Source: Verrucomicrobiaceae bacterium (GTDB lineage: Bacteria; Verrucomicrobiota; Verrucomicrobiia; Verrucomicrobiales; Verrucomicrobiaceae). From it: a DNA stretch of 64,000 nucleotides. This document shows, in pieces, positions 5,558-27,641 of the stretch. The notes beneath the pieces were generated by a model, which searched no databases, was not told the origin of the DNA, and saw only the letters and a list, made by a program, of their open reading frames with translations. Made by a program: the position numbers and the translations under genes. The stretch is from NCBI GenBank assembly GCA_016795485.1, contig JAEUHM010000043.1:1-64000 (forward strand). Reading direction: 5' to 3'. The number at the start of each line of letters is the position of its first letter. Within the stretch, counting starts at the first letter, position 1.

Positions 5558-5827
5558 GGGTGTGGGTACGAGTAGGGTGAATCGTCACGCGGGGTGACAT
5601 GAGCAAGATGCGCGGCTCCTCCTTCGGAAGCGAGGACCTCGTTTTTATGCGCCTATGCACGGAGGTTATGAGGCGTGCTGACGCAAATGCACACACCGAT
5701 CATCGGCGGTGTAAGCGCTACCTCACATGAACGCGGAGCCCATTCGCGGCCTCAGTGAAGAGGACGCAAAATGAAGACCATGGCGACGAGCGAGGAAGAC
5801 CGAAGCAGACGGCTCCCGAAAGCTTTA
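5558..5827. other. intergenic region, cytochrome gene to MFS gene
   Basis: About 270 bp between two minus-strand genes. I find no tRNA fold, no protein-like frame and no convincing terminator. It presumably carries the cytochrome promoter. Confidence 0.4.
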
Positions 5828-7288: not shown

Positions 7289-7310
7289 TTGGGGGAAATA
7301 CGTTGGCGAT

Positions 7311-7351
7311 TGTTGAGCTTGGTTGAGCGGTTGTTTAGCTGTGGTTTAGGG
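7311..7351. repeat. left inverted repeat flanking the four-helix-bundle gene
   Basis: TGTTGAGCT, GTTGAGCGG and TGGTTTAG occur here in that order, and in the same order on the opposite strand at 7732-7770. This copy has an extra ~11 bp before TGGTTTAG. It overlaps the stop codon of the enclosed gene. Confidence 0.6.
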
Positions 7352-7729: not shown

Positions 7730-7731
7730 AC

Positions 7732-7770
7732 CATTGCTAAACCACCGCTCAACTACAGCTCAACAACCGC
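7732..7770. repeat. right inverted repeat flanking the four-helix-bundle gene
   Basis: On the minus strand this reads TGTTGAGCTGTAGTTGAGCG followed by GTGGTTTAG, matching the left copy with a short length difference. It lies between the start of the enclosed gene (7729) and the stop of the isomerase gene (7780). Confidence 0.6.
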
Positions 7771-7779
7771 AAGCCGTTC

Positions 7780-8715: not shown

Positions 8716-8833
8716 GGCGTGGGCATTCAACGCACAGAATCCGGCGCTACTAGCCCTGTTTCGCTTAAAATCGGCTTTTGCAAAACCCACCACAGACGGC
8801 AAAGTGCCCGCCCTTTATTTTTGACGCAAGCGT

Positions 8834-11764
8834 ATGCCTGAACTCGACAAAACCTACACGCCCTCCGAGGTGGAAGCCCGCTGGTATCAGCAGTGGCTCG
8901 ACGACAAATGCTTCCAGGCCGACCCCGCACGCGTCAGCGAGAAGCGCCCTGCGTATTCCATCGTCATCCCGCCGCCAAACGTCACTGGTATCCTCACGCT
9001 TGGCCATGTTTTGAACAACACCATCCAGGACATCCTGGCCCGCCGCGCCCGCATGTTGGGCAAGGAAGTGCTCTGGCTCCCTGGAACAGATCACGCCGGC
9101 ATCGCCACTCAGAACGTGGTGGAAAAGACGCTCAAGAAGAACGGCGAGATCAAACATCGCGATGACTTGGGCCGCGAGAAGCTCGTGGAGAAAATCTGGG
9201 AGTGGAAAGACAAACACGGCGGCATCATCATCCAGCAGTTGAAGAAACTCGGCGCCTCCTGCGATTGGAGCCGCGAGCGCTTCACCATGGACCCGGAGTA
9301 TTCACGCTGCGTGCAGCGCGTGTTCGTGGACCTTTATAAGAAGGGCCTCATCTATCGTGGCAAACGCATGGTCAACTGGTGCCCGTCATCCCTCACTGCG
9401 CTTAGTGATGAAGAAGTGATCATGAAGCCGCAAAATGCGGTGATGTACTACTTCAAAGTCGAGGTCATCGAAGAACCCGGCACCTGGCTCACCATCGCCA
9501 CGACTCGCCCAGAGGTCATCCCAGGCGACCAAGCCATTGCGGTCAATCCCAATGACCCGCGCTATGCTCATCTGATCGGCAAACACGTCCGCCGCCCGCT
9601 TCCTGTCGAGGATCAGGCACCGCTGCCCATCATCGGAGACGAGCATGTGGACTTCGAGTTCGGCACCGGCGTGCTCAAGGTCACTCCCGCGCATGACAAG
9701 GCGGACTTCGAGATCGCCCAACGTCACAACTTGCCCGCCGTGGACGTGATGCACCCCAACGGCGTGCTCAATGAACTCGCTGGCAAAGACCTTGCGGGAA
9801 TGGAGCGCTTTGCCGCACGCAAACGCGCCGCTGAGTTGCTCGCAGAGATTGGTTCGCTGGTGAAAGAGGAGCCGTATCAAAACAACGTCGGCTACTCCGA
9901 GCGCGCCGATGTGCCCATCGAGAGCCGCCTCAGCGAGCAGTGGTTCCTGAAGTATCCGAGCACCCAACCCTCACAAGAAGTGGTGGCCAAAGGCGACATG
10001 CGCTTCTTCCCCGAGCGCTGGGCCAAAGTCTATGATCACTGGATGGGCGGCCTCCAAGATTGGTGCATCTCCCGTCAGCTCTGGTGGGGACATCGAGTGC
10101 CGGTGTGGAGAAAAACCATCGCCATCGATGAGTCGGATACGCCAACCAAAGAGAACAAGGAAACGCAAAGCTTGGTGGATTCGCTCCTCAGCGCGGCCAG
10201 CAGTGACTCACCCGCGACGCCCACGAACGGTGCAGTGGAAGTTTCCCTGTCCAAGATTGATGCGCAATCGTCGTCGTGTCGCCTGCACTTGCACGGGGAA
10301 GGTGGCATGGTCGTGGAAGCGGCGTCCACCTCCGTGGCTGAGATGCGGTGGCTGGAGGAGCATGGTTTCACTCAGGACCCCGACGTCCTCGACACGTGGT
10401 TCAGCTCCTGGCTCTGGCCATTCGCCACCATGGGATGGCCGGACAAGTCGGACGACCTACGCGCCTTCTACCCCACCACCGATCTCGTCACCGGCCCGGA
10501 CATCATCTTCTTCTGGGTCGCACGCATGATCATGGCGGGCTACGAGTACATGGGCGAGATGCCGTTTAAGAACGTGTACTTCACCGGCATCATCCGCGAC
10601 AAACAGGGCCGCAAGATGAGCAAGTCGCTCGGCAACTCGCCCGACCCGCTGGAGATCATCGCGAAGTATTCCGCCGACGCCCTGCGCTTCGGCATCATGC
10701 GCAGCGCGCCGCTGGGTCAGGACATCCTCTTCGACGAGAAGAACGTCGAACTCGGCCGCAACTTCTGCACCAAACTCTGGAACGCCGCCCGCTTCCGCCA
10801 GATGCAGAGTAGCGACGATTGGCAATCGTCGTCCAACGCTTCGTCGAAGTCTGAAACCACGATTACCAACCGTGGCTACGTCGCCGAAGCCGAGATCAAT
10901 CCCGCGCTCCTTTCTTCGGACGACAAATGGATCGTCCTACGCCTCAACACCGCCATCACTGAAGTCAGCACCGCGCTCGACGAATATCGCTTCAGCGATG
11001 CTACCCACACGCTCTACCGCTTCTTCTGGACGGAGTATTGCGACTGGTACATCGAGGCATCCAAGGCAACACTGCAAGGTAATGATTCCGCACGCAAAGC
11101 CAACACGCTAGCCGTTATTGATTTCGTGCTCGGTCACACACTGCGCATCTTCCATCCGTTCCTCCCGTTCATCACCGAGGAACTGTGGCATGGCATGGGC
11201 TTCAACACCGACATGCCCGACAACCAAGGCGGCAAGAGCATCATGTTCGCCCCCTGGCCCAAGCCTTTGGACCAAGACGAACTGGCCCACTTCGGCATCC
11301 TCCCTGAAGACGAACAAACCGCGAACGACAAATACAAGACCGTCGAACTCGGCCGTGGCTTGAAGAGCACCTTCAATATCAGCAAGAAGGTCCGCTTCGT
11401 CCTCAAACCCGCTCAGGAACTGCCTGCCCATGAGATCGAAGTATTGCGCATCCTGCTCAACGCCGAGCCGCTCGACGTCGATGCAGCGTTTACGCCCAAG
11501 AAGGGCACTCCCGTGGCATTAACACCATTGGGAGAACTTTTCCTGCCACTGGATGGCATCATCGACGTGGATGCTGAGCGCGCTCGCGTCAGCAAAGAGG
11601 TAGCCAAAGTCGAAGGTGAACTCGCCAAAGTGCGCGCCAAGCTCGCCGATGAGAACTTCACCTCCAAAGTGCCTCAGAAGGTGCTGGATGAGCACAAACA
11701 GCGAGAGACGGACTGGTCCGCTCAGTTGGACAAGCTCAGAGCCATGCTGGAAGCGCTGGTTTAG
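8834..11764 (+). CDS. valS: valyl-tRNA synthetase
   Basis: A 976-residue class I synthetase charging tRNA-Val. Seen: PPPNVTGILTLGHVLNNTIQ near residues 46-65, where the HIGH motif reads TLGH; the editing-domain block TTRPEVIPGDQAIAVNP; GRKMSKSLGNSPDP near residue 593; and a C-terminal coiled-coil arm (VDAERARVSKEVAKVEGELA). Two segments look inserted relative to usual ValRS: about residues 435-495 (Ser/Thr-rich) and about 657-690, the latter encoded by a palindrome cluster at 10813-10875. The rest is intact, so the gene is probably functional. Confidence 0.97.
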   Translation: MPELDKTYTPSEVEARWYQQWLDDKCFQADPARVSEKRPAYSIVIPPPNVTGILTLGHVLNNTIQDILARRARMLGKEVLWLPGTDHAGIATQNVVEKTLKKNGEIKHRDDLGREKLVEKIWEWKDKHGGIIIQQLKKLGASCDWSRERFTMDPEYSRCVQRVFVDLYKKGLIYRGKRMVNWCPSSLTALSDEEVIMKPQNAVMYYFKVEVIEEPGTWLTIATTRPEVIPGDQAIAVNPNDPRYAHLIGKHVRRPLPVEDQAPLPIIGDEHVDFEFGTGVLKVTPAHDKADFEIAQRHNLPAVDVMHPNGVLNELAGKDLAGMERFAARKRAAELLAEIGSLVKEEPYQNNVGYSERADVPIESRLSEQWFLKYPSTQPSQEVVAKGDMRFFPERWAKVYDHWMGGLQDWCISRQLWWGHRVPVWRKTIAIDESDTPTKENKETQSLVDSLLSAASSDSPATPTNGAVEVSLSKIDAQSSSCRLHLHGEGGMVVEAASTSVAEMRWLEEHGFTQDPDVLDTWFSSWLWPFATMGWPDKSDDLRAFYPTTDLVTGPDIIFFWVARMIMAGYEYMGEMPFKNVYFTGIIRDKQGRKMSKSLGNSPDPLEIIAKYSADALRFGIMRSAPLGQDILFDEKNVELGRNFCTKLWNAARFRQMQSSDDWQSSSNASSKSETTITNRGYVAEAEINPALLSSDDKWIVLRLNTAITEVSTALDEYRFSDATHTLYRFFWTEYCDWYIEASKATLQGNDSARKANTLAVIDFVLGHTLRIFHPFLPFITEELWHGMGFNTDMPDNQGGKSIMFAPWPKPLDQDELAHFGILPEDEQTANDKYKTVELGRGLKSTFNISKKVRFVLKPAQELPAHEIEVLRILLNAEPLDVDAAFTPKKGTPVALTPLGELFLPLDGIIDVDAERARVSKEVAKVEGELAKVRAKLADENFTSKVPQKVLDEHKQRETDWSAQLDKLRAMLEALV
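10813..10875. repeat. cluster of three palindromes inside valS
   Basis: Three hairpin-capable units follow in tandem within the reading frame. CGACGATTG/CAATCGTCG (10813-10831) has 9-bp perfect arms and a 1-base centre. CTTCG/CGAAG spans 10839-10849. CCACGATT/AACCGTGG (10857-10875) has one mismatch. They encode the low-complexity segment SSDDWQSSSNASSKSETTIT. The arrangement is REP/BIME-like and recalls palindromic elements inserted in frame in Rickettsia genes. Confidence 0.6.
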
Positions 11765-11853: not shown

Positions 11854-13761
11854 ATGTGCGGCATTTACGGTTTTGCAGGTTTTAAAGAAGACGGGCTCCT
11901 GGAAAGGATGGGCCGTGTGATCCGTCATCGTGGACCGGATGGACAAGGACGCTACGAGGCCCCAGATGGAATGCCTTTCTCGATGGGCATGCAGCGACTC
12001 AGCATCATCGACCTCGAAGGCGGCTGGCAGCCCGTCTTCAACGAAGATCAAACCGTTGCCATCTGCTACAACGGTGAGACCTACAACTACGTCGAGCTGC
12101 GTGATGAACTGGAAGCCAAAGGTCACCGCTTCACCACCCACAGCGATACCGAGTGCCTCGTCCACGGCTATGAGGAATGGGGCATTGAAGGCCTTCTCAA
12201 GCGCATGAACGGCATGGCCGCCTTCTGCATCTACGATGTGCGGAAGCGGGAGTTCTTCATCGGGCGCGACCGCTGTGGCCAGAAGCCGCTGTATTATCAT
12301 CACAGCAACGGACGCTTCCTTTTCGGAAGTGAGGCCAAGAGCATCCTTCAGAGCCAGCACGTCACCGCTGAACCCAATCTTGAGGCCATCGATCCCTACC
12401 TAACCTTGCGGAACGTGCCGGAGCCAATGACGATGTTCCAAGGCATCCACAAGCTGCCCGTGGCGCATTACTTGCACTACAAACTGTCAGACAACAGCCT
12501 CAGCATCCATCGCTACTGGGAAGTGCCGCTGCTGGATGCACGAACCGCCAGCTATAAGAGCGATGGTGAGTATTTTGAGGCGCTGGAGCATATCTTCTAT
12601 GACGCCGTGAAGCTCTGCATGAGGAGTGACGTGCCCGTGGGCGCTTATCTCAGCGCGGGTGTCGATTCCTCGCTCACGGTGGCTGCGATGACGAAATACT
12701 CGTCCAACATCAACACCTACAGCATCGGTTTTGACTCGCCTGTGGATGAAACACCCGCTGCACGCGAGACCGCAAAGTTCCTCGGCACCAAGCACCACGA
12801 GATCATCTGCCAGCCAGAGGATTTCGATCTGCTGCCAAAAATCGTGTGGCACATGGACCGACCCGTGGGCGATGCGCTCTTGATTGCCTTCTACAAACTC
12901 GCTCAAGGAGCCAGCAAAGACCTCAAGGTCGTGCTCGGTGGAGAAGGCGCTGATGAAGCATTCGCTGGATACTCCTTCCAAGGCGTCATCGGCAAGGTCA
13001 ACAAAGTCAAAGCCCTCGCGCCACTCGCAGCGATGGCTTTCGGCATCACGCCACACGCGCTGCTGAACAAGTTCTTTGTCTTCCCCGCCGATCTTGGCTC
13101 CCAAGGCAAGAAGCGGGTCATCGACTTTCTCCGCCACTACAACCACCGCGATCTCAACCACAACTTCAACGCCCTCCGCACCCTCTGGAGCCAGGACGAG
13201 CGACACGATATTTACTCCGACACCTTCAAACACCGCGCCACCACCGCATGGATGGCCAAGGAGAAGGACAAAGACAAAAACGGCCCCTTCCTCGACCGCC
13301 TGCTGAAGCTGCAATACGACGAGTGGCTGCAAGATTGGGCCCTCATCCGCCAGGACAAAAACACCATGGCGCACAGCCTGGAGTATCGCCTCCCGTTCCT
13401 CGATCCACGCCTCATCGAGCTTGCCTTCCAGATGCCCGCGCATCTGAAGAACAACGGCAAAGAAGACAAGATCATTGAGCGCCGCTTAGCCGACAAGGTG
13501 TTCCCGCCGCACATCGCCCGGCGGAAGAAGATCCCCTTCTACCTCCCCGTGGAGTACTTCCTCGACCAGCCTCAGTTCAAGGCCCTTGTAGCCGACACCC
13601 TCAACGAAACCGCCATCAAGAGACGAGGCTACTTCGATCCCAAAAAGGTCTCCCTGCTCCTGGAGCAAATGCGCACCACGCGGGAGTTCATTTTCTGCAA
13701 GCAAGTCATGTCCCTGGTGGTGCTAGAGCTATGGCACCGCGTGTTTGTGGACAAAGGGTAG
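11854..13761 (+). CDS. asnB: asparagine synthase (glutamine-hydrolysing)
   Basis: A 635-residue enzyme converting aspartate, glutamine and ATP to asparagine. The ATG at 11854 places the nucleophile Cys at position 2 (MCGIYGFAG). The N-terminal class II glutaminase domain (to about 200) has RLSIIDLEGGWQPVFNED and CYNGETYNY. The synthetase domain contains LSAGVDSSLT, where the usual SGG is SAG, and VLGGEGADEAFAGY. The C-terminus LLEQMRTTREF is nearly repeated in a relic at 23.9 kb. Related amidotransferases act in polysaccharide or peptide modification, so the acceptor is not certain. Confidence 0.92.
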   Translation: MCGIYGFAGFKEDGLLERMGRVIRHRGPDGQGRYEAPDGMPFSMGMQRLSIIDLEGGWQPVFNEDQTVAICYNGETYNYVELRDELEAKGHRFTTHSDTECLVHGYEEWGIEGLLKRMNGMAAFCIYDVRKREFFIGRDRCGQKPLYYHHSNGRFLFGSEAKSILQSQHVTAEPNLEAIDPYLTLRNVPEPMTMFQGIHKLPVAHYLHYKLSDNSLSIHRYWEVPLLDARTASYKSDGEYFEALEHIFYDAVKLCMRSDVPVGAYLSAGVDSSLTVAAMTKYSSNINTYSIGFDSPVDETPAARETAKFLGTKHHEIICQPEDFDLLPKIVWHMDRPVGDALLIAFYKLAQGASKDLKVVLGGEGADEAFAGYSFQGVIGKVNKVKALAPLAAMAFGITPHALLNKFFVFPADLGSQGKKRVIDFLRHYNHRDLNHNFNALRTLWSQDERHDIYSDTFKHRATTAWMAKEKDKDKNGPFLDRLLKLQYDEWLQDWALIRQDKNTMAHSLEYRLPFLDPRLIELAFQMPAHLKNNGKEDKIIERRLADKVFPPHIARRKKIPFYLPVEYFLDQPQFKALVADTLNETAIKRRGYFDPKKVSLLLEQMRTTREFIFCKQVMSLVVLELWHRVFVDKG

Positions 13762-13810: not shown

Positions 13811-16800
13811 TTACTTGCCTAAAACAGAAACATCAAGGCCAACGCCTCCCCCAATCAAGTATGGCTTGACGGTAATAGTAGCTACGGACGATTTGCCGGG
13901 TTGCCGATCAACAGGAAACTCTTGCGGTATGCCCAAGACCTCCTGAAAACTAGCTCCAACTTGTAAACCTGGCAGCAAGCGAATTCTTGCCTGTGTGGCC
14001 TCAGACACATCGCTCCAATAATAGCACACATCTTTCACGACTTGCTGACCTCGCAGTCTCATCAAGAAACGAACTGCCCACTCCTTGAGCACGGAATCCG
14101 AACATTGTTCAATTGCAGATTGAACATTATCTAGAGCAGACTTTGGACGTGGCTCGGGCAGTAGAGCACCATCATTGTCCAATTTCCATCCCACTATGGC
14201 TAATGACAAATCGAGTAACCAATTGGGACACCCAGACTCAAGAAGCAAGCGCGATGCCAAAGCATCTGTGCGCCCTGAAAAACTCATTTCGTTCTCTGCA
14301 ACCGTAAAGGCAGCTAGGTTCCCTTGTGTTTGAATGTCAAACATCTCAACGCCTTCACCGTGTTTAGAAAACACCCAAAAGGAATCGTGGGAGAATGCCA
14401 CCTCACTACCGATTCGTAGTTGATCGATCACTGTGGAGACGCTGAAACCGCTCCTCAAGTCAACAATACCCGGCGACCACCACAATGCCTCCTCGCCAGC
14501 CCCCAAAATCAAGAAGCGCGAATTAGGGGACCAAAAAACATCCAGCGGATTGTGTGGGTAAGCCCAAGGAATGTCCGCCTCATGGTCAACATGCCACGGC
14601 AAAACACTTCCGATCCAAAGCCTCGAAGAGCCAGCCGCAGCAAATCGTTCATGGTCAGGACTGAAGACTATCCTTACCAAATCCCGCCGCTGCACATGAT
14701 CAAGACCCAGAATTTGCCCCTGTTCATCAGTAGGCGTTATTGTAGCACCATCTTTGGAGTTTGGTTGAAGAATATCGGGCCAGTCCACCGCGAAGCGGTC
14801 CTGCAAACTAAAAATTTCAATTTTGGCATTTCCTGAGATAGGCGTAAACTCAGCTCTGTGTGTAGTGTGCCGCGAAATGACTGCCAAAACATCATGTTCT
14901 GGATCATGGCAGAAAATCGGTGGCAAATCTCCCACAAGTTGGACCGGGCCAAGAACTAATCGTCGTTGATGTTCTTCATCCCAAACAGCCCACTGCGAGG
15001 TTTCCTGATTTACCTTGATGACATGACCATTGCCGATTCGATAATTCCGTTCCCATTGGCCAGGAATTCGAAGCGAGATCGCCTCCACAATATCGGGTTT
15101 ATCCTGATCTGAGTTGTCATATTGCGTGGGCGAAATCTGTTGGAGAGTTATTGGAAAAAAACGATCCAAATTCGAGACTTTAACTTCAATTTCTGGCGAG
15201 CCTTCACTACCCACGCTGCATTTGAACATGCCTGTGTTTCCACTGGAAGCCCATCCTGGAGTCCATTCTACGTCAAAGTGAACCCCCGTAAACCATACCG
15301 GATTCTCGACGGGCCACGCCCAGCCACGGTAGTTCAGTGTAACTAGCAACGCTGTTAATGCCGGGTTGTTAACCGGATGCTTCCGCAAAGACTCTACGAG
15401 GTAACAGACCCCTCGCGGGTCTTGGCTTCGAAGCATAGTTGTGCCCTGTAACATCAGACTTGTGGCAAGTTGAGTCACTGCATCTCTTTCTCTTTTTTCA
15501 GCGATGTCTTTCTGTTCCAGCACTTGTAGGTTCGAATCCGCCAGCTTTGACGAATAGAACCCGTAAAGAATGATGATCACAATTCCAAGCACAGCCAGGG
15601 TAGCAAATGCTGCGGTGTGACGCCGAATCAAGCGGCCCGTTTCAGTGAGAGGGTTCCAAGCTGGCTCTAGCTGTTTATTCCGTCGGTCGGCTTGATAATC
15701 CTCAATCGCCGCCTTGATTTGTGGTGCCGTTGGCCGCGATGTTGGGTCAAACTCCACCGCAGTCAGAATCAGCTTCTTCAAGAGGCTCGGAAGTTGAGTG
15801 CCGCTTTCCCGAGCGAGCGGTACGTTCTTTCCATCACGGACCTTCTTCCAAATATCGCCAAGTCGATCTTTCCCTGTGAGACGGGGTGCTGCCTCAACGG
15901 GTTTCTGAAGTGTGACTAGCGAGTACAGCAGACAGCCCAGAGCGAAGATATCTGCGGGTGGACCCACTGCGTCAGGGTCTTTGGCCTCCAGTTGCTCCGG
16001 CGAGGCATAAGTCTCGGTACCACGAAAGTCCCCTGTGCCTGTACGCTCCGGATCGCGCATCCGGTGGATAGCGGCCGCCGCGGGAGATTGTTCCAGAACC
16101 GTTTTTTGATTCTTTACTTCCTTAGCGAAAGGCGTCAGACCAGTAATGTTAGCTATTCCCCAATCCATTAGGAATACCTCTCCGTGGGTGCCGATCATGA
16201 TGTTCGCAGGTTTGATGTCCCTGTGCACGACACACAGCTCGTGGTCGTGAGCGAATGCCACTGCGTCACATACCTTTTTCATGAGGTCCAGTCGAGCGGA
16301 CAGGGGTTTATACTGCTCGAGAATGACCAACTCTGTTTCGCTGAGTCCCCTGGGCACCTTGCCCTCTGTATCCTGGACTAGCAGATCGATGAGTCTTTTC
16401 ATCGTGATCCCCTCGACGTACTGCATGACCATCAAGCCCGAACGGTCGGCAGCATTCTCATCCAATGCCATCTGCAAGTAATCATGCATCGGGACGATGG
16501 AGGGATGAGCCAAGAGGCTGGTAATACGGGATTCTAGTTCCAGCTTCTTTTCCAGGTACGCCTTCTCTGCATCGGAAAGTGTGCGACTCTGGAGCTTACC
16601 GTCAGCAGAGTCCTGCTGGACGTTATTCACCACGACCTTGATTGCTACCAATCGCTTCAGTTCTGGGTCCCTAACCAAGTAGACGACACCCATTCCGCCT
16701 TCTCCCAACGTCGGAGCCCCATCGATATTGTATCGAATGTTCCTCGCTGCGGCCTTGGCCTTGCCACTGGCGCTACCTGGAGGTGGAGCTACTGGTGGCG

Positions 16801-16897
16801 TCTTGTCTGGATCGTCCTCGTTATCGGCGGGAACTTCGCCTTCAGGCCCAGGAGTTCCGGGCTCCTCATTTTCGTCATCGGGTGGGATCTGGTTCAT
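13811..16897 (-). CDS. transmembrane Ser/Thr protein kinase with a large C-terminal sensor-like region
   Basis: A 1028-residue Hanks-type kinase. An acidic, Pro-rich head (1-50) precedes the kinase domain (about 60-400): LGEGGMGVVYLV (G-loop 64-75), VAIKVV (Lys), VVHRDIKPANIM near 224, MDWGIAN in place of DFG, and ETYASPEQ. A single membrane segment (AVLGIVIIILYGFY, about 425-447) is followed by a coiled stretch and about 570 residues of WD/propeller-like blades, probably extracytoplasmic. It lies 38 bp downstream of the FHA gene and forms an operon with it and the sigma factor. The DWG variant keeps the metal-binding Asp, so activity is expected. Confidence 0.9.
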   Translation of the reverse strand: MNQIPPDDENEEPGTPGPEGEVPADNEDDPDKTPPVAPPPGSASGKAKAAARNIRYNIDGAPTLGEGGMGVVYLVRDPELKRLVAIKVVVNNVQQDSADGKLQSRTLSDAEKAYLEKKLELESRITSLLAHPSIVPMHDYLQMALDENAADRSGLMVMQYVEGITMKRLIDLLVQDTEGKVPRGLSETELVILEQYKPLSARLDLMKKVCDAVAFAHDHELCVVHRDIKPANIMIGTHGEVFLMDWGIANITGLTPFAKEVKNQKTVLEQSPAAAAIHRMRDPERTGTGDFRGTETYASPEQLEAKDPDAVGPPADIFALGCLLYSLVTLQKPVEAAPRLTGKDRLGDIWKKVRDGKNVPLARESGTQLPSLLKKLILTAVEFDPTSRPTAPQIKAAIEDYQADRRNKQLEPAWNPLTETGRLIRRHTAAFATLAVLGIVIIILYGFYSSKLADSNLQVLEQKDIAEKRERDAVTQLATSLMLQGTTMLRSQDPRGVCYLVESLRKHPVNNPALTALLVTLNYRGWAWPVENPVWFTGVHFDVEWTPGWASSGNTGMFKCSVGSEGSPEIEVKVSNLDRFFPITLQQISPTQYDNSDQDKPDIVEAISLRIPGQWERNYRIGNGHVIKVNQETSQWAVWDEEHQRRLVLGPVQLVGDLPPIFCHDPEHDVLAVISRHTTHRAEFTPISGNAKIEIFSLQDRFAVDWPDILQPNSKDGATITPTDEQGQILGLDHVQRRDLVRIVFSPDHERFAAAGSSRLWIGSVLPWHVDHEADIPWAYPHNPLDVFWSPNSRFLILGAGEEALWWSPGIVDLRSGFSVSTVIDQLRIGSEVAFSHDSFWVFSKHGEGVEMFDIQTQGNLAAFTVAENEMSFSGRTDALASRLLLESGCPNWLLDLSLAIVGWKLDNDGALLPEPRPKSALDNVQSAIEQCSDSVLKEWAVRFLMRLRGQQVVKDVCYYWSDVSEATQARIRLLPGLQVGASFQEVLGIPQEFPVDRQPGKSSVATITVKPYLIGGGVGLDVSVLGK

Positions 16898-16935
16898 GTC
16901 GGAGGATTCAAATTGTTGAAGATTGGGCGAGTCGG

Positions 16936-17385
16936 TCAGTCCACAAAAACAAAAACAGCGTCTCCGGCGATGATGTAGTCTCCAGAGCGCAATGGGTGCC
17001 TACCTGCTATCGGGGTTTCGCTGCTGACATGGGTGTGGTGGGTGGAACCCAGATCTTCAATAAAGTAGTCACCTTCTTCCTGACTGATGAGGAAGTGTCG
17101 CTTGCTGAGGGTCTTCGGCCCAACGATGGCTAAGTCTGGCGTGTTCTCTGGGTCTGGCTTTAGAGGTTTTCGTCCAACGACGAGAGGGTAAATACCGAGT
17201 TCATGGCAATGCACTTCTTGCTCGGCGATGGTCTTGTACATCAGCGCTGGTCCAGTGGGCTGGACTTTCAGTGCGGTCCAGAAGGCATCGAAGAGGTCGA
17301 GTCGCTCGAGGATAGGTGCAGGGATAGTGGGAAGAGGCACATCCACGGGGGTCCGGTCATTGGAATCGGCGATGGTAGAGTTCAT
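16936..17385 (-). CDS. FHA-domain protein
   Basis: A 149-residue cytoplasmic protein whose C-terminal half is a forkhead-associated domain, which binds phosphothreonine peptides. Seen: YPLVVGRKPLKPD, KTLSKRHFLISQEEGDYFIE, DLGSTHHTHV and HPLRSGDYIIAGDAVF. The Gly-Arg and Ser-x-Arg-His pair are kept, but the usual STNGT loop is STHHT. The ATG at 17385 is chosen; a TTG at 17430 overlapping the sigma-factor stop would add 15 residues. Its place between sigma factor and kinase suggests it reads or relays the kinase's phosphorylation. Confidence 0.88.
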   Translation of the reverse strand: MNSTIADSNDRTPVDVPLPTIPAPILERLDLFDAFWTALKVQPTGPALMYKTIAEQEVHCHELGIYPLVVGRKPLKPDPENTPDLAIVGPKTLSKRHFLISQEEGDYFIEDLGSTHHTHVSSETPIAGRHPLRSGDYIIAGDAVFVFVD

Positions 17386-17426
17386 AACGGAAGGAAAAGC
17401 TTGGGTAAAGTTGTTGGAGTGAGAGA

Positions 17427-18107
17427 TCAAAAAGATTGGGCGATGACATCGTCGATTGTCAGCGTTTGCTCGCTATTTACTAGCTCTAGGGCCGTGTTGA
17501 GGCGCTTCCGCATATCCGATGTGATGGTATTAACGTTGTCGGTGCTGATTCCGTGTTTCACAGCGACTTCAGCGGGTGTAAGGCCGAGGGCTCTGTCCAG
17601 AAGCACCTGAACATCCCGTTGTTTGTGAGGCTTTAGTTTTACCAGCCTGCATAAGATACGGCGTACCGCCTTCAACGAACTCCGGGCAATGAGATTTTGA
17701 TTAAGGTCCTTCGTCCCCAAATGATGTTTTTGGAATCCGGCACCATCACCTTCACCGAACTCATCCCAAGATTGCTGGCCTGTGACTCGCGGGTATTTGC
17801 GGAAATACCCCAAAATTGAGAACTGGCAGTAGATGTGCAGGAGATTCCGAGCATGTGTTGCCCGATCCTCTGTGGCTCTTCCTTGGTCCGCTGAAATGTC
17901 ATACGACTGATCAGTTCTACGAAAAGCGATGATGGCGTCGAAGAAGACACTGTCTTCGTCTTCCTTGGGCACATTGCGACTGCGGATGTGTCCAATGAGT
18001 TCTGGGTATGCCTTGACGGCCAAATGGTGGTTTGCAGACTGCCACTCGCGAGTGCGAGCCGCAGTGCCTCCGTGAAAGTGATTGAGGGTAAACTCGCGAA
18101 AGTCCAT
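17427..18107 (-). CDS. ECF-type RNA polymerase sigma factor (divergent)
   Basis: A 226-residue sigma-70-like protein. Region 4 is clear near residues 165-210 (LGLTPAEVAVKHGISTDNVN, then TSDMRKRLN). A region-2-like helix (HIYCQFSILGYFRKYPRV) lies near 90-110, but the conserved region 2 motif is weak. It is first in an operon with the FHA and kinase genes. The stop overlaps a possible TTG start of the FHA gene, which would couple translation. It may direct RNA polymerase to genes controlled by the kinase. No membrane anti-sigma factor is seen in the operon. Confidence 0.75.
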   Translation of the reverse strand: MDFREFTLNHFHGGTAARTREWQSANHHLAVKAYPELIGHIRSRNVPKEDEDSVFFDAIIAFRRTDQSYDISADQGRATEDRATHARNLLHIYCQFSILGYFRKYPRVTGQQSWDEFGEGDGAGFQKHHLGTKDLNQNLIARSSLKAVRRILCRLVKLKPHKQRDVQVLLDRALGLTPAEVAVKHGISTDNVNTITSDMRKRLNTALELVNSEQTLTIDDVIAQSF

Positions 18108-18397
18108 GGATCAAGATGGGGTGAAGTTTGAGTGTGAGGATGTGCCTACAGATCGTAAAGCGTTGCCAGGCGCCAACTTCTAAAAATGTTTTCCGTTTTT
18201 TCTCCCCCTGCCACCTGGCGGCCAAGAAAAACTAGGCTGAAACACTGGGAAACAAACACAGTGCAGTGCGTCCGGTCAGCAGCTGGAGTCGGAAATCCGA
18301 AGAAACTCATTCTTTTGTCTTAGAACGACCGCTCGCGTGTCGCTGAAACCCATGAAGCCACACATGTGGCCTCTACGAACCCATCAACACTATCACC
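18108..18397. promoter_or_regulatory. divergent intergenic region of the signalling/export locus
   Basis: 290 bp separate the sigma-FHA-kinase operon (leftward) from the metalloprotease gene (rightward), so promoters for both are expected. The palindrome GCCACACATGTGGC (18356-18369) is a candidate operator or leader hairpin. No -10/-35 pair is assigned. The last bases before the protease ATG are A/C-rich without a Shine-Dalgarno. Confidence 0.45.
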
Positions 18398-20053
18398 ATG
18401 AAAACACACCTTACTCTAATTGTTGCCTGCCTTGGGCTGGCGTCTGCTGTAGGTTTCCGAATCGGCTCCGGTCCGATGGCATCATCCGCTGCTGTTACCA
18501 CCGTTAACGCAGCAACGCCTCATTCGCCAGGCTGTGCGTGTGGAGGCCTCCATTCCTCTCACTTTCCCCGAGGGGCTGCGGCTACCCAACAGGTAGCTAC
18601 AAGCCTTGCCCCGTCCAAGGTTCAAACGCAGGTCCCCATGCCACGCTTTGGGGATGATTTCTCCGATGTGGCGGTGGGCGAAGAAATTGATCTACCTTCC
18701 GGCGTTGTCGGCACGGTAGAGGCTGTATTGGTGGATGAGGACGGGATCACCCGCTTCTCTGGCTCGACGTTGCCCGATGGGCGATTCGTCGTAGCGTTGA
18801 ACGCTGAGGGAAGCGTGACGGGCGGATTCGTGGAGGTCGATGGGGCTGAGATGGTCACCAACTTCACGCTCTCGGACTCGAATACCACAATCGTCACGCA
18901 GGTGGCCCAGGGGGACTTCCGTTGCAGCGGCATCCCTCTGGCACCACGGATTGGCCAACTGGCGCGAAAGATCGCACCGCCAGAGCCAAAGCCTGGGGTG
19001 AACCCCCTGTCCGTGGTCGTGCCGACCTTCGATTCGGTTCCGTCTGCCGCTGGGGTTATCTTTTTGGACTTTGACGGACAGGTGGTCAGGGATCCCTCCT
19101 GGTATGGTGGAAAGACGATAGAGGCGGCACCAGCCACGATTGACGGCGATGAGATTACCGAAGCTCAGATTTTGCGAATCTGTCAGGCGGTAGCAGAAGA
19201 CTTCAGTCCTGTGAATGTCAGCGTGACGACGAGTGCGACTCGCTATGCAAGAGCACCTATTGGAAAGCGCATCCGCTGCATTGTGACGCCCACGAAGGAA
19301 TGGCTGGGAAAATCCGCCGCTACAACTGGCGGTGTCGCCTATATGGGCTCGTTTGCCCGGCTTTATCCCACCTACCAGAGCAGCACCATTCCGGTATGGT
19401 GTTTTGATCAGCTATCAGAAATCAATATGGCTATGACCATCAGCCATGAGGTCGGGCATGCGTTCAACCTGAAACACGATGGTGACGCCAAATCAGCCTA
19501 CTACGCAGGACACGGCAACTGGGGGCCGCTGATGGGAGCGCCATTCAATATGACCATCACTCAGTGGTCCAAAGGAGAATACGCCGGTGCTAACAACAAA
19601 CAGGACGACATCGCCATCCTGACCGGCACTGCTAACAAAGTCGGACGGCGGGCCGATGATGTGGGCAGCACACCAGCCACAGCTCGGAAACTGGCCACCA
19701 GCACGGGGACTCTGTCGCAAACGGGTCTGCTGAGCCTAGCTGGCGATTTGGACTATTTCGAGATCAAGGCCAATGCGGGGACGCTCAATCTTGCAGCAAC
19801 ATCCATCTGGACGACAAACTGGCAGCAGAACACCGACTTCACCATCGCACTGTATGACGGGCCCACCGTGCTGGCAGTAGCCAGCCCAAGCAGCACGTCA
19901 GCCACATTGAGATTCAGTCTTCCCAAGGCAGGAACTTATCACATCGTCATGCAACCGAGCAGTTATGGCGATCCAAAAACCACTGGTTACTCGACCTATG
20001 GCGCTTTGGGACACTATCGCCTGACTGGAACCTTCCCCAAGCCCTTGAACTGA
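18398..20053 (+). CDS. secreted metzincin-type zinc metalloprotease with PPC-like C-terminus
   Basis: A 551-residue exported protease. The signal peptide (MKTHLTLIVACLGLASAVGF) precedes a poorly conserved pro-region to about 210. The catalytic domain begins IFLDFDGQVV and carries TISHEVGHAFNLKHDG near residues 347-362, that is HExxHxxNxxH with Asn where many metzincins have Gly. About residues 425-548 form a beta-rich domain like the bacterial pre-peptidase C-terminal domain (GDLDYFEIKANAGTL, KAGTYHIVMQPSS), often removed after export. It is the first gene of the rightward run and is followed by a strong hairpin at 20069-20099. Confidence 0.9.
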   Translation: MKTHLTLIVACLGLASAVGFRIGSGPMASSAAVTTVNAATPHSPGCACGGLHSSHFPRGAAATQQVATSLAPSKVQTQVPMPRFGDDFSDVAVGEEIDLPSGVVGTVEAVLVDEDGITRFSGSTLPDGRFVVALNAEGSVTGGFVEVDGAEMVTNFTLSDSNTTIVTQVAQGDFRCSGIPLAPRIGQLARKIAPPEPKPGVNPLSVVVPTFDSVPSAAGVIFLDFDGQVVRDPSWYGGKTIEAAPATIDGDEITEAQILRICQAVAEDFSPVNVSVTTSATRYARAPIGKRIRCIVTPTKEWLGKSAATTGGVAYMGSFARLYPTYQSSTIPVWCFDQLSEINMAMTISHEVGHAFNLKHDGDAKSAYYAGHGNWGPLMGAPFNMTITQWSKGEYAGANNKQDDIAILTGTANKVGRRADDVGSTPATARKLATSTGTLSQTGLLSLAGDLDYFEIKANAGTLNLAATSIWTTNWQQNTDFTIALYDGPTVLAVASPSSTSATLRFSLPKAGTYHIVMQPSSYGDPKTTGYSTYGALGHYRLTGTFPKPLN

Positions 20054-20068
20054 GCCGCAGAGGTTTGG

Positions 20069-20099
20069 AACGCGCTGCCCTGCTGAGGTGCAGCGCGTT
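20069..20099 (+). terminator. GC-rich hairpin after the metalloprotease gene
   Basis: AACGCGCTGC (20069-20078) pairs perfectly with GCAGCGCGTT (20090-20099) across an 11-base loop, 15 bp after the stop codon. There is no following T-run, so it may be a 3' stabiliser or a partial terminator rather than a classic rho-independent one. Confidence 0.55.
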
Positions 20100-20211
20100 G
20101 GGGCAGGTATCTTCGAGAAACTTTCTGAGAACCGAACCGGCACTGACGCTGATACCAATAACCCCAGCACTTTGTCTGGGACCGCAACATCAAACACAAC
20201 ATAACATAACT

Positions 20212-21795
20212 ATGAAAACACGCATCAAGGCGCTCCTCGTCAGCAGTATGCTGGCCATCACTGGCGGCTCGGCCCTCTATGGCCAAGCCGATTTTCCGTA
20301 TGCCCCCAAAACCATTGCTGTGGCCAACCGAACGTTGGCGACTGCGGGTGTGGGAAGCTATTTCACCACGGCACCTGCTGAGGCTTCCACCACCAGCGGA
20401 GGTGACAGCTATTGGGCGGCGGTGGTTTCCCACTCTAGCGTGGGACATGCCGCAACCTTCTACGCTGCTGCCGAGCGGGCTGTCGTTGAATCCAAGCTTG
20501 GCAACTGGCCTTCCGATTTGACCAGGGTCTATGACTTGGATTCCGCTAAGGCCGATGTATCTGCCTTTACGGCACGGGTGCCGCGCAGTGTACCTGCACT
20601 GCTGACAGTTCACCGGGCATCCACCATCGGCTCCAACTCCATCTCACTGATGCTGTCCAAACGACAGCCGCTCATCCAGCTCAAAAGCGGCAGCAGTGTA
20701 ATCAAGAGTTGGACATTGCTGGATAACAGCATCGGTGGGAGATTTTCGGTTTCCACGGACCGCTGGGCTAGGGAGTTCACCGTCTCGTCGAGCAACCGGT
20801 ACGTCTTGCAGTTTGTCGGCAATACGTCCGCGACTTATCCCCAACGTTTCGACATCATCGCAGCTGCGGATCTCCCCAAGTGGTATGATGGAATAACGGT
20901 AGGCCCAAAGCTCAGTATAACGTTGAACACATGGGACAAAGCCTTGGTGCTGCCGGCGGGCCGTTACGCGATGGTTGCGCGGGCAACAAGGGGCCTTTTC
21001 AAGGGCGCAGTGCAGCTCTTGGAGTATGTGCCCACGCCAACATCTAGCTGGAAGGCGGTCGCGGCTGATTTCCCTTACCGTCCCGTGGTAGTGAAGTATT
21101 CCAAGTCGCTTACAAGGTCGGGAGCCGACAGCTACATGGTTTCCACTGCCCCTATCTCCGTAAAGGCAGGGAGCACCTTTAGCGCATTGGGCGCCGGGGA
21201 GTTGGGACTGACGGTAGCGTTATTCAAACAGGACGCTGCTGTCACCAACGCGTTTACGGCATACCTACCGCTATCCAACGATCCAAGGATCACCTTTGCC
21301 CGCAGCACCTCAAACTATTTTCCTGCCTCCGTATCGATGACGGCAGCTGTTTCGGTTCCCTACGTGCTCGGGGTCCGAAGCTTCAAGGCTGGATACGCGA
21401 CTAATGCAAACGTCTTGCTGTCCAGGAATGTGGATGTGGTGAAGTATGCTGCCGCCGGGCTCTCAAAGACCTGGATTCGTCAGGCGAACCCTGTGCTGGA
21501 GACGTTCTCCGTGACATCGCTGGGGATGTATCTCCGGTCATTCACGATCACCAGTGGCTCGCGTTACGCGTTTCGGTTCGTTACCGACGAGGCGACTCGG
21601 CCGGAACATATTGATGTCATCGCAAGGAAGGATCTTATTAGGCTTAAACTGCGGCAGGCGGTGACCTCCGTGGAAGGTTTCACTGGCAAGCACGGTGAGT
21701 TCGCACTGAGCCTAGCTCCAGGCGACTACGTGATGGTAGGGATGGCGTCCTCTGGCAAGAATAGCGCAGCCTATGAGCTGATCGAATATCGTTGA
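20212..21795 (+). CDS. secreted hypothetical protein with two tandem ~260-residue repeats
   Basis: A 527-residue protein of unknown function. The ATG at 20212 opens a signal peptide (MKTRIKALLVSSMLAITGGS, cleavage near LYGQA). The mature chain has two homologous halves starting DFPYAPKT (about 26) and DFPYRPVV (about 286). Each has an SYFTTAP/SYMVSTAP strand, an FDIIAAADL/IDVIARKDL motif and ends AMVARATRG...LLEYVP or VMVGMASSG...ELIEYR. Nothing links it to a known family. Position between the protease and HD genes, with its own 3' hairpin, suggests it is exported together with the protease. Confidence 0.85.
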   Translation: MKTRIKALLVSSMLAITGGSALYGQADFPYAPKTIAVANRTLATAGVGSYFTTAPAEASTTSGGDSYWAAVVSHSSVGHAATFYAAAERAVVESKLGNWPSDLTRVYDLDSAKADVSAFTARVPRSVPALLTVHRASTIGSNSISLMLSKRQPLIQLKSGSSVIKSWTLLDNSIGGRFSVSTDRWAREFTVSSSNRYVLQFVGNTSATYPQRFDIIAAADLPKWYDGITVGPKLSITLNTWDKALVLPAGRYAMVARATRGLFKGAVQLLEYVPTPTSSWKAVAADFPYRPVVVKYSKSLTRSGADSYMVSTAPISVKAGSTFSALGAGELGLTVALFKQDAAVTNAFTAYLPLSNDPRITFARSTSNYFPASVSMTAAVSVPYVLGVRSFKAGYATNANVLLSRNVDVVKYAAAGLSKTWIRQANPVLETFSVTSLGMYLRSFTITSGSRYAFRFVTDEATRPEHIDVIARKDLIRLKLRQAVTSVEGFTGKHGEFALSLAPGDYVMVGMASSGKNSAAYELIEYR

Positions 21796-21814
21796 ATCAA
21801 GCCCTGGGTCGAAG

Positions 21815-21844
21815 GCTGCTTGCCCGAACCGTCGGGCAAGCAGC
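21815..21844 (+). terminator. perfect 13-bp hairpin after the repeat protein gene
   Basis: GCTGCTTGCCCGA (21815-21827) pairs perfectly with TCGGGCAAGCAGC (21832-21844) around an ACCG loop, 19 bp after the stop. It is very stable but lacks a T-tract. It could reduce read-through into the HD-domain gene or protect the upstream message. Confidence 0.6.
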
Positions 21845-21868
21845 TAACTGGTAGCCCTTTCTTCCTCT

Positions 21869-22591
21869 ATGAAGCGATACCAACACGCACTATGCCGAGA
21901 GGCATTATTCGCTAACGCCACATCCGGCGCTCAGTTGGCAGAATACCTTCGTCTTCAACACGACGCGGGATGGTTGGAACGTCTCATCCCTGAACTGGTG
22001 ATTCTCAAAACCATGCCGCACCGGGCAGAGTTCCATCCTGAGGCTGCTGGAACAGTATGGGGCCACATCATGGCCGCCCTGAGGGCCTCAGAATCTTCGG
22101 ACCCTCTGACCAACCTCTGCATAGCCTTCCACGATGTTGGTAAGTGTTGCCCTGAGCGCGATGCGGCGGGGCGGTTTACCTATCGCGGACATGAGTTGCT
22201 TGGGGTGGCTGTTTTCCATGGCATTCAGAGGAGGCTGAGGTTTTTCACGGAGGAGGAAGTGCGGGCGATCCACCTCTGCATAGAACACCACATGCAAAGT
22301 AGAAGCATCATGATGCAGGACTGTCCCAGAGCGCTGGTGGTGAGACTGCGCTCCAGTGAGGACTGGCCGAATCTCAAGGCGACGATGTGGGCAGATTGTG
22401 CCTGCCGCATGCATTTATGGCAGCCAAGCGCGTGGAACGATGGAATGGAGTGGGTTGACCGGCTCTATGGAGAGTGGTGGACCTCTCAGGATGCGCAGAG
22501 GGTGCCGAAAGGACCGGGAAGTGCGCCCACGGTAGGTTTTTCCGAAAAAGTATCATTGTCGTCTGAGAAGGAGCCCCTTGGGAGCGCTTGA
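21869..22591 (+). CDS. HD-domain phosphohydrolase-like protein
   Basis: A 240-residue protein with an HD domain like that of class I CCA-adding enzymes, but without a nucleotidyltransferase domain. Seen: EAAGTVWGHIMAAL (first His), CIAFHDVGKCCPERDA (HD pair, near residue 87), TYRGHELLGVAVFHGIQRRL, LCIEHHMQSR, and a late Asp in TMWADCACRM. Metal-dependent phosphohydrolase activity is likely from the family; the substrate is unknown. No signal peptide, so it is cytoplasmic. The C-terminal ~40 residues are Ser/Pro-rich and probably unstructured. Confidence 0.8.
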   Translation: MKRYQHALCREALFANATSGAQLAEYLRLQHDAGWLERLIPELVILKTMPHRAEFHPEAAGTVWGHIMAALRASESSDPLTNLCIAFHDVGKCCPERDAAGRFTYRGHELLGVAVFHGIQRRLRFFTEEEVRAIHLCIEHHMQSRSIMMQDCPRALVVRLRSSEDWPNLKATMWADCACRMHLWQPSAWNDGMEWVDRLYGEWWTSQDAQRVPKGPGSAPTVGFSEKVSLSSEKEPLGSA

Positions 22592-22628
22592 GCCTGTGTA
22601 GACCAAACCATTCATCATCAAACACACC

Positions 22629-22916
22629 ATGTATCACGACGTCGACATCAACGAAGGAACCAAAAGCGGACTGGCTAAGACGGCGGGTTGGCTGGGAGCA
22701 ATCGCAGGCTTCAATCTAGCGGTGATTGGAGAATATCCGAACTTTCTTGCCGCTATGCTTGTAGGCGGCCTGGTCGGAGTGGGTGCTTCGTACTACCGCC
22801 GAGAGGCTGGCTTTGCCGTCATTTTGATTTCGGCTGCGGTCATCCTCAAAGCGTGCAGCCCGAAGGATCAGTTCACAGCAAGTGCCGCCACGGCCCGAAT
22901 CTGCAAAATCGCTTAA
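22629..22916 (+). CDS. small membrane protein
   Basis: A 95-residue protein with two or three predicted membrane helices (GWLGAIAGFNLAVIG, FLAAMLVGGLVGVGASYY, GFAVILISAAVILKA). The soluble head is short (MYHDVDINEGTKSG). No family is recognised. The leader ATCATCAAACACACC lies directly before the ATG with no Shine-Dalgarno, like the other genes of this run. Confidence 0.65.
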   Translation: MYHDVDINEGTKSGLAKTAGWLGAIAGFNLAVIGEYPNFLAAMLVGGLVGVGASYYRREAGFAVILISAAVILKACSPKDQFTASAATARICKIA

Positions 22917-22944
22917 CCACATCCAACCAAAGAACAGCGCCAAA

Positions 22945-23304
22945 ATGAAGACACTAACCACTATCGCCCTGTGTGCATCCTTGCTCTCCAGCTGCACCAA
23001 CTCCTACCCCTACTACGCCGACTCCTATTACCCGCGGCCAAGTCCAGCCGGAAACCGATACCTCCAGGGTTACTCAGGGGGCAGCTACCGCGCACCGCAG
23101 CCTATGGACAGTCCATCAAGCACTGGTTTTGCCGATATTGCCGTTCCTCTAGCGATAGGTGCTGGTCTGATATGGGCCATGGGTGGGGGTAGCAGTGAGA
23201 GTTCAGGCTCAACAGATGCGAGTAGCTCACCAGAGGCTTACGAAAAGGCAAATCAGAATGCAGAAAGCATGGGAAGGCCTGCGCCGTACCCCGAGTATAG
23301 GTAG
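22945..23304 (+). CDS. small lipoprotein, Tyr/Pro/Ser-rich
   Basis: A 119-residue lipoprotein. MKTLTTIALCASLLSSC is a clear type II signal with the lipidation Cys at 17. The mature part has Tyr/Pro-rich sequence (YPYYADSYYPRPSP), one hydrophobic stretch (FADIAVPLAIGAGLIWAMGG) and a Ser-rich tail. The longer frame from 22882 would bury the signal. Last gene of the rightward run; function unknown. Confidence 0.75.
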   Translation: MKTLTTIALCASLLSSCTNSYPYYADSYYPRPSPAGNRYLQGYSGGSYRAPQPMDSPSSTGFADIAVPLAIGAGLIWAMGGGSSESSGSTDASSSPEAYEKANQNAESMGRPAPYPEYR

Positions 23305-23821: not shown

Positions 23822-23993
23822 AAAAACCGCCCCATCAAGCGGCCTCCAGTCCCCCTGATGTCAATAAAGGCGTCCCACCTCTTGGAGCAAATGCGCACCA
23901 CGAGAGAGTTCATCTACTGCAAACAAGTCGTCTCCCTCGTCATCCTGGAACTCTGGCACCGTGTTTTTGTGGACCGGAGTTATGGGGTTTAGT
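23822..23993 (+). pseudogene. C-terminal relic of a second asparagine synthetase
   Basis: The frame to the TAG at about 23992 ends with LLEQMRTTREFIYCKQVVSL followed by VILELWHRVFVD, nearly identical to the last residues of asnB at 13.7 kb. No glutaminase or synthetase core lies upstream. Many third positions differ between the two copies, so this is not a recent duplicate but the remains of a diverged paralogue or an acquired gene. Similarity fades upstream of about 23822. Confidence 0.75.
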
Positions 23994-27268: not shown

Positions 27269-27312
27269 CGATCTATCTCTTCCACCGCGCTTCTGGTTTT
27301 GCCTCCGCTGAA

Positions 27313-27564
27313 GGGACCTTTTAGTCGGTCAGAGAGACCTTTTGGTCGGTCGGAGGGACCTTTTAGTCGGTCAGAGTGACCTTTTAGTCGGTCGGAGAGA
27401 CCTTTTGGTCGGTCAGAGGGACCTTTTGGTCGGTCGGAGGGACCTTTTGGTTGGTCGGAGGGACCTTTTAGTCGGTCGGAGAGACCTTTTGGTCGGTCGG
27501 AGGGACCTTTTAGTCGGTCGGAGTGACCCTTTAGTCGGTCAGAGGGACCTTTTCGTGGGTAAAA
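27313..27564. repeat. tandem repeat: twelve copies of a 21-bp unit
   Basis: Twelve uninterrupted 21-bp units plus a partial thirteenth. The unit begins G(G/A/T)GACCTTTT(A/G)GT and ends CGGTC(A/G)GA. Variation is almost limited to two or three positions that recombine among copies, typical of slippage and unequal exchange. Each unit holds GACC and GGTC, which can pair. Because 21 is a multiple of three, several frames stay open on both strands; I do not regard them as genes. The array fills the space between two convergent genes. Confidence 0.93.
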
Positions 27565-27641
27565 GGGACCTTTTTGCTCCAAAAAGCGCCGTTTTTTATG
27601 GGAAATGAAACTTTCGGCCCAAGTCGGAGCAGAACTCTGAA
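27565..27641. other. non-coding flank of the tandem repeat
   Basis: A partial unit (GGGACCTTTTT) followed by AT-rich sequence with a T-run at 27592-27597. No gene seen. It could hold the 3' end of either convergent transcript. Confidence 0.35.

Follow-up and report, generated by a model that had tools for sequence, protein, structure and literature searches.

A recurrent sigma factor, FHA protein and kinase unit in Verrucomicrobiota, with a likely link to genes for secreted proteases or other secreted products

Introduction

Extracytoplasmic function (ECF) sigma factors encoded beside Hanks-type serine/threonine protein kinases (STPKs), and small FHA proteins with a threonine in their N-terminal arm, are the closest described relatives of the system reported here. 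That system is a strongly diverged ECF-like sigma factor, an FHA protein and a transmembrane kinase encoded together in a 64,000-nucleotide stretch of a Verrucomicrobiaceae bacterium (GenBank assembly GCA_016795485.1, contig JAEUHM010000043.1, positions 1 to 64,000), hereafter called the window. The trio is a real, recurrent three-part switch, built from known pieces in a new combination.

The portions of PMC8999054 used here list six STPK-linked ECF groups (ECF43, ECF59, ECF61, ECF62, ECF217 and ECF283), all predicted to be kinase-controlled, and give a described mechanism for one, ECF43. Kinase activation is reported for EcfP (EcfP/PknT) and EcfK (EcfK/PknS) (PMC8999054, PMC13147305, in the sections consulted). 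The window unit is like these groups in that an ECF-type sigma factor stands beside a Hanks kinase and not beside an anti-sigma factor; it is unlike them in having a dedicated FHA protein, a non-uniform loss of the DAED block of the sigma factor and, in its order, frequent protease neighbours. Compared with ECF43 in particular, an adjacent STPK is present (38 bp past the FHA gene), and DAED is not absent throughout the group. The term FHA does not occur in the main text of PMC8999054 or PMC13147305. Another group, ECF54, is described in the same portions of PMC8999054 as having carboxypeptidase, subtilase and CHAT neighbours and no anti-sigma factor, with proteolytic control of the sigma factor proposed. 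By that description, protease neighbours and the missing anti-sigma factor are common to ECF54 and our unit, which differs in that its proteases look secreted and in the presence of a kinase and an FHA protein.

GarA, OdhI and FhaB of Actinobacteria have metabolic enzymes or the cell envelope as their targets. Like them, the FHA protein described here is small and has an N-terminal arm with a threonine; unlike them, it is encoded with a sigma factor, and the window copy is without the NG pair discussed below. OdhI is phosphorylated at Thr14 by PknG (PMC2784874, relevant part). In the planctomycete Rhodopirellula baltica, the FHA protein RB1789 (243 aa) is induced by heat, cold and salt, and the ECF sigma factor RB1790 is up only under high salinity (PMC2754498, in the part drawn on). 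These two genes have consecutive locus numbers and may be a stress-induced planctomycete counterpart. Literature searches combining ECF or sigma factors with FHA, kinases and Verrucomicrobia or Planctomycetes found no description of the unit; the main ECF classification, which may include it, lay outside their coverage.

The locus

An earlier sequence-only reading listed eight genes here and described a sigma factor, an FHA protein and a transmembrane kinase diverging from a metzincin-led gene run. All eight are open reading frames (ORFs) when checked against the window, and the frames together with domain scans confirm that arrangement. Pfam and NCBIfam scans covered nine window proteins; signal peptides and the lipobox were judged by eye. 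The features of the trio are as follows.

13811..16897, minus strand: Hanks Ser/Thr kinase, 1028 aa (Pfam and motif check)
16936..17430, minus strand: FHA protein with conserved N-terminal arm (Pfam FHA; full-length relatives)
17427..18107, minus strand: strongly diverged ECF-like sigma factor (sister-sigma profile; weak fold matches)
18108..18397, no strand: intergenic region between the divergent genes, presumably holding the promoters for both directions (weak candidates at 18248-18272, plus, and from 18293, plus)

The sigma factor and FHA genes overlap by 4 nt, 38 nt separate the FHA and kinase genes, and 290 bp lie between the sigma factor gene and the divergent metzincin gene. On the minus strand the trio forms a tight operon, and the metzincin gene stands back to back with it.

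Recurrence of the unit

As a query, the FHA protein matched seven of the 66 other family genomes, four of them through the FHA domain alone; four FHA relatives (L042, L043, L044 and L048) stand directly behind a sigma-like gene. An FHA profile run against 288 genomes of the order, with up to 12 candidates per genome scored and counts that are lower bounds, gave at least 15 matches starting at or before model position 27 among the matches listed. Fourteen, in which the N-terminal part of the FHA protein is retained, were counted; the fifteenth (G032), which read through a stop and had no sigma factor, was left out. A recognisable sigma factor lies immediately upstream (gaps of -4 to 27 bp) or is fused to the FHA protein (L137, L138) at 13 of these 14 loci. 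Twelve of the 13 sigma factors trained the sigma profile, and independent support comes from Pfam, with matches over the cut-off at six loci (L080, L081, L082, L131, L137 and L138) and below it at seven (L130, L132, L133, L134, L135, L136 and the window). At the remaining locus, L083, the sigma position is taken by a 330-aa gene that neither Pfam nor the sigma profile recognised.

A kinase is encoded within 4 kb at nine of the 14 loci (the window, L083, L130, L131, L134, L135, L136, L137 and L138), against about 0.76 expected from the kinase density of the window's own genome. The window's gene order, sigma factor, FHA protein and kinase, is found again in L131 and L177. Four close pairs among the 14 loci (L137/L138, L133/L134, L130/L132 and L135/L136) have 62-89% sigma identity and hence are not independent. 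As a control, FHA matches without the N-terminal part were considered: a sigma factor accompanied one of 19 further loci of the order, and that one, L118, is a known member. None of six other FHA genes in the own genome, and none of five further control FHA loci, has a sigma factor beside it. The FHA protein is a more constant partner of the sigma factor than the kinase is.

Across the phylum, an FHA search of 387 genomes (up to nine candidates per genome scored) led to 16 fetched places. Eleven have a sigma factor upstream on the same strand, two with gaps above 50 bp (51 in L176, 549 in L188); none was found upstream on that strand at L177's own match, L179, L185, L186 or L187. A second and complete set, arranged as in the window, is present in L177, and among the resulting twelve sigma factors the Sigma70_r2 cut-off was reached by all ten that were scanned with Pfam, L182 and L184 lying outside the scan. 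Six early-starting FHA matches contain in-frame stops; the three fetched (G017, G311 and G433) have no sigma factor, and the other three (G432, G462 and G629) were outside the fetched set.

The window sigma factor used as a query matched none of 67 other family genomes and, in named genomes, gave 25 candidate stretches of which none was confirmed; its divergence made an alignment of sister sigma factors necessary for the search. With that alignment the named genomes yielded ten loci. Three are the modules of G002, G019 and G022, and six of the other seven have an FHA gene downstream and a kinase within 4 kb (L201 has neither). These six come from Spartobacteria, Lentisphaerae, Opitutia, Opitutae and two Verrucomicrobia metagenome-assembled genomes, and all six are over the Sigma70_r2 cut-off. 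The proposal that kinase, FHA protein and sigma factor form one unit is thus borne out by loci elsewhere in Verrucomicrobiota.

The proposed switch

Our preferred reading, held with moderate confidence, is that the trio forms a sigma switch under phosphorylation control, in which the FHA protein is the dedicated reader and the regulon consists of very few secreted proteins. The transmembrane kinase would sense something outside the cell and phosphorylate a threonine in the FHA N-terminal arm, the sigma factor or both. The FHA protein, whose gene adjoins that of the sigma factor or is at times fused with it, would bind the phosphothreonine and so free or activate the sigma factor. Transcription by the sigma factor would then be directed chiefly at the neighbouring secreted gene, in the window that of the metzincin and perhaps also that of the two-repeat protein.

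The kinase domain (about residues 63-395; Pfam Pkinase E 1e-31) keeps the G-loop, VAIK, HRD and DWG motifs that mark a Hanks kinase, and a single strong hydrophobic, transmembrane helix begins at about residue 423; the C-terminal part presumably lies outside the cell. This outer part is WD40-like as judged by eye only. A single-sequence structure model of it (predicted local distance difference test score, pLDDT, 35) carries no information and was discarded, a search of solved structures gave just two clathrin rows (E 0.43), and one of the 66 other family genomes matched, weakly. Clear WD40 propellers are present in one sister kinase (L200). Elsewhere in the own genome (G000, contig C35), locus L084 holds an FHA-kinase pair without a sigma factor and a separate ECF-kinase pair, at 5570-9665 and 16963-19588.

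The window sigma factor has only sub-threshold Pfam matches (region 4, E 0.034; GerE, E 0.006). A profile of 12 sister sigma factors, with the window left out, matched it at E 6e-4 and matched no other window ORF of at least 80 aa; the same profile also detects an ordinary ECF gene (L084, E 4e-10). With the window included, a 14-row profile matched solved ECF sigma factors (best E 6e-8). The structure model of the window sigma factor is helical (pLDDT 67), and the top Foldseek rows are mostly sigma factors, ECF nearest, at weak values (E 0.086 or higher). No anti-sigma family was found among the nine window proteins by Pfam or NCBIfam, and a canonical ECF system under a membrane anti-sigma factor was dropped on that ground.

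The sigma factor could itself be the kinase substrate, in the manner of EcfP/PknT of ECF43: phosphorylation would restore negative charge in region 2.2, and the FHA protein would serve only as scaffold or feedback element. This is compatible with the preferred reading and does not exclude it. STPK-ECF neighbourhood is an established predictor of such control (PMC8999054, same portions), Ser53 of the window sigma factor sits where 27 of 31 sisters carry the final D of DAED, and the L135 and L136 sigma factors read ATSRD and ATSWD at this block. However, five sisters (L178, L180, L182, L184 and L195) retain AED or SED, the window's own DEDS is acidic, and the FHA protein is the more constant partner; we consider this route unlikely.

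The FHA protein (Pfam FHA E 2e-10) begins at a TTG that overlaps the sigma factor stop by 4 nt, with an ATG at 17385 as an alternative start. Its arm was compared in 33 FHA proteins, 32 adjoining a sigma-like gene and one (L177b) not. A T-[VIMLAS] pair 10-29 residues before the anchor occurs in 27 of the 33 (shuffles gave 16.0; p 0.0005), and a threonine at -14 in 13, both counts uncorrected for kinship. The FHA module profile matches structures of the FhaB-like TB39.8, GarA and OdhI, among others. Because of these threonine counts and profile matches, the sequences suggest that the arm is a phospho-switch arm. Natural sigma-FHA fusion proteins are encoded at 8849-10111 of L137 and 8939-10066 of L138.

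In a repressing version of the preferred reading, the FHA protein would be a phospho-regulated anti-sigma factor that holds the sigma factor until the kinase frees it. GarA/OdhI-type profile matches, the arm threonine, the constancy of the FHA partner and the lack of a membrane anti-sigma family in the operon speak for it; against it, the FHA protein could equally be an activator, and its binding to the sigma factor is putative. We regard this version as possible, if somewhat doubtful.

Secreted neighbours and a candidate promoter

Two genes on the plus strand are the candidate outputs of the switch in the window.

18398..20053, plus strand: metzincin-like, presumably secreted protease whose C-terminal domain is PPC-like; proposed as a target (sub-threshold Pfam, motif)
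20212..21795, plus strand: two-repeat protein, presumably secreted and almost an orphan in the family (self-alignment; ATG at 20212)

The protease has Reprolysin and PPC matches in Pfam, both sub-threshold, the zinc motif HExxHxx(G/N)xxH (HEVGHAFNLKHD) and a hydrophobic N-terminus that looks signal-peptide-like by eye. Relatives occur in 30 of the 66 other family genomes, and all 29 fetched loci of such relatives have the HExGH motif. The repeat reported in the second protein is real, its self-alignment scoring 160 against 67 for the best of 100 shuffles; no Pfam or NCBIfam family matches the protein, and one weak match with stops was found among the 66 genomes. It is a possible second target, of uncertain membership.

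A Pfam protease of some family lies near seven of the 14 modules of the order, at gaps of 167 to 1657 bp; at the other seven, Pfam covered some of the neighbours.

Window module: metzincin (sub-threshold)
L081, L137 and L138 modules: S8 with PPC
L082 module: caspase with PPC
L133 module: Trypsin_2; L134 module: Trypsin_2, sub-threshold, with P-domain

The 12 module genomes (72.4 Mb) contain 66 S8 and 157 Trypsin_2 matches, from which 0.34 would be expected within 4 kb of the 14 loci; four over the cut-off were seen (P 4.5e-4), and at ten lineages three (P 2e-3), in a test that, like that of the arm threonine, was chosen after the data had been seen and is uncorrected for kinship. L081, L082 and the window have a common divergent sigma-protease layout, with gaps of 167, 173 and 290 bp. 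The recurring element is a type of partner and not this particular metzincin, and it is likely, though unproven, that the switch is tied to genes for secreted proteases or for other secreted products.

Side-by-side comparison of upstream regions brought out the promoter-like motif WTTT-N8-GCATAAGR in L080 (twice), L081, L082, L137 and L138; L133 and L134 have looser variants of it. In these few relatives the motif suggests that the switch activates the secreted gene next to it. At these five sister loci it lies 81-111 bp before a secreted gene, and at all eight sites, looser variants included, the core is 81-137 bp before a secreted-looking gene and in the same sense. The motif was derived from those sites, and the independent result is its rarity elsewhere, not its presence. 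The form WTT-N8-GCATAAG has eight matches in 514 kb of module loci (six at motif-bearing genes, one inside the window sigma factor gene and one inside a gene of L182) versus none in 319 kb of control loci. Genome-wide, the tighter form WTTT-N8-GCATAAGR occurs 0-2 times per genome in 25 genomes, and a reversed-pattern control 0-5 times; the matches lie at modules in two of two cases each in G002 and G022 and in one of two each in G003 and G019, six of eight in all. Neither gene preceded by the motif in L080 is a recognised protease, the 325-aa one having been scanned. Behind the second copy in that locus (937-1158, minus strand, G022) is a gene for a small, Cys-rich, secreted-looking peptide. 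Among 25 loci held back from its construction the motif is not general, and we make no claim for it beyond the sister group. A strongly diverged sigma factor such as the window's would be expected to read another sequence. A classical ECF-like GGAAAC-N15-CGTC at 18248 is left unclaimed, with 0.63 such occurrences expected in the window by chance.

Outside the order, LPP20-type secreted proteins follow the FHA gene in L174, L176 and L196 (over the cut-off only in L174) and may be the regulated output there. Their genes lie at 8951-9916, 8752-9708 and 4915-5916, respectively. One S8-tagged gene is 4.4 kb away in L174.

Bracketing repeat

Two copies of a 109-bp sequence bracket the whole noted gene set, both halves included. 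The gene at the left bracket is one we take, from its sequence, to be an asparagine synthetase.

13644..13752, plus strand: asparagine synthetase 3' end, left repeat copy (repeat alignment)
23866..23974, plus strand: second, displaced copy (109 bp at 81% identity) of the 3' end, forming the right bracket (repeat alignment)

Of the 36 codons, 20 are identical, 11 differ synonymously and five non-synonymously, with the frame intact and a stop soon after; once a tandem array near 27300 is excluded, 48 of 100 bases match in the window's runner-up direct repeat and 81 in this one. The G+C content at third codon positions (GC3) is 0.52-0.66 in six genes of the block versus 0.71-0.77 in three other window genes. 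No integrase was found among the nine scanned proteins, and no tRNA in the window. Because a repeat of this kind is the footprint expected of insertion at a gene's 3' end, the sequence suggests that the block arrived as one island inserted there; alternatively, the right copy could be what remains of another asparagine synthetase gene. The repeat and GC3 support a joint arrival of the two halves, not a joint function.

Weighing the interpretation

Several observations count against the preferred reading. Five of the 14 loci of the order have no kinase within 4 kb, and both the protease and the arm-threonine test were chosen with hindsight. The window's divergent region holds no significant motif copy, the best starting at 18293 toward the metzincin gene (p 0.12), whereas an exact match at 17637-17656 (plus strand), one of two in the 6.5-Mb genome, falls inside the sigma factor gene; we set it aside as a promoter, since it sits in coding sequence and is a probable coincidence. 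In a held-out test of 25 loci, 22 had no site scoring higher than the best null window, and the three sites that exceeded all 533 null windows are badly placed: antisense to the sigma factor with no convincing leftward gene (L131), inside the upstream gene (L182) and across the end of an upstream kinase gene (L189). No S8, trypsin or metzincin was seen directly beside modules outside the order, in a motif scan only. None of the 29 loci of metzincin relatives gave a sigma factor, FHA or kinase match, at 2.3-4.5 kb each with about 1.5 kb of flank, where a sigma factor as diverged as the window's could escape.

The trio might instead be a real signalling unit with the metzincin gene as a chance neighbour on the same island, the sigma factor having its targets elsewhere. 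The unlinked metzincin relatives and the lack of a significant motif copy in the divergent region favour this account; proteases near seven of the 14 loci, the divergent layout shared by L081, L082 and the window, and the repeat enclosing both halves speak against it, and we find it rather unlikely. Judged by the co-occurrence test set in the sequence-only reading, this metzincin does not accompany the module; several relatives of the module have a protease or another secreted gene beside it. The suggested signalling chain controlling a protease gains from the recurrent trio beside protease or secreted genes with a shared motif; its control of export is not supported.

Two losses in the window copy are a further adverse point. 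GR, S, H and NG are the residues by which FHA domains read phosphothreonine; the window protein keeps GR, S and H and has HH in place of the NG pair. At the region 2.2 block, DVLQ in 20 of 31 sister rows, the window sigma factor reads SVFF, losing a Q kept in all 31. Because of these losses, the window copy could be decaying or altered. Outright decay of the trio to a functionless copy would also fit the near-absence of recognisable relatives of the sigma factor and the kinase outer part, and a GC3 of 0.52-0.59 against 0.71-0.77 in three other genes, which may instead mark recent arrival. Yet the three frames are intact and the kinase catalytic motifs and 4-nt translational overlap are kept, and we hold decay to be very improbable.

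If the preferred reading is right, the unit adds a third, more constant component to kinase-controlled ECF sigma factors, and the candidate promoter in one sister group makes mechanism and output both directly testable. It would also explain part of the role of many kinases, of which the own genome has 44 by Pkinase matches. As a tentative generalisation, the phylum may possess an undescribed form of sigma control in which an FHA reader is the sigma factor's regulatory partner, the outer parts of the coupled kinases (WD40, TPR, LRR, laminin-G) are interchangeable, a unit drives almost only its adjacent secreted gene from a private promoter, and whole units travel as cassettes, the one in the window having settled at the end of the asparagine synthetase gene.

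Downstream genes and minor features

Two hairpins accompany the plus-strand genes.

20069..20099, plus strand: 10-bp perfect hairpin between the metzincin and two-repeat genes (hairpin scan)
21815..21844, plus strand: 13-bp perfect hairpin after the two-repeat gene and before the HD gene (hairpin scan; absent from the T-tail terminator list)

The second is likely a transcriptional break before the HD gene. The sequence-only reading had included an HD phosphohydrolase (a weak match), a small membrane protein and a lipoprotein in the set; with this hairpin in front of them their membership is unsupported, and these genes are probably ordinary bystanders. Sigma-70 promoter and terminator scans gave no excess over shuffles. 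The notion that the unit controls export is likewise unsupported, and control of secretion machinery was dropped, none being present among the nine scanned proteins; it is simpler to suppose that genes for exported proteins are transcribed under its control. An NTPase conflict system, in which ECF, FHA or caspase parts can occur (PMC8195603, in the part consulted), was also dropped, there being no NTPase family among the nine proteins and no STAND-type hub. Farther along the window, about 27300-27640, lies a short-period tandem repeat array with offsets of 21, 42, 63 and 84 bases.

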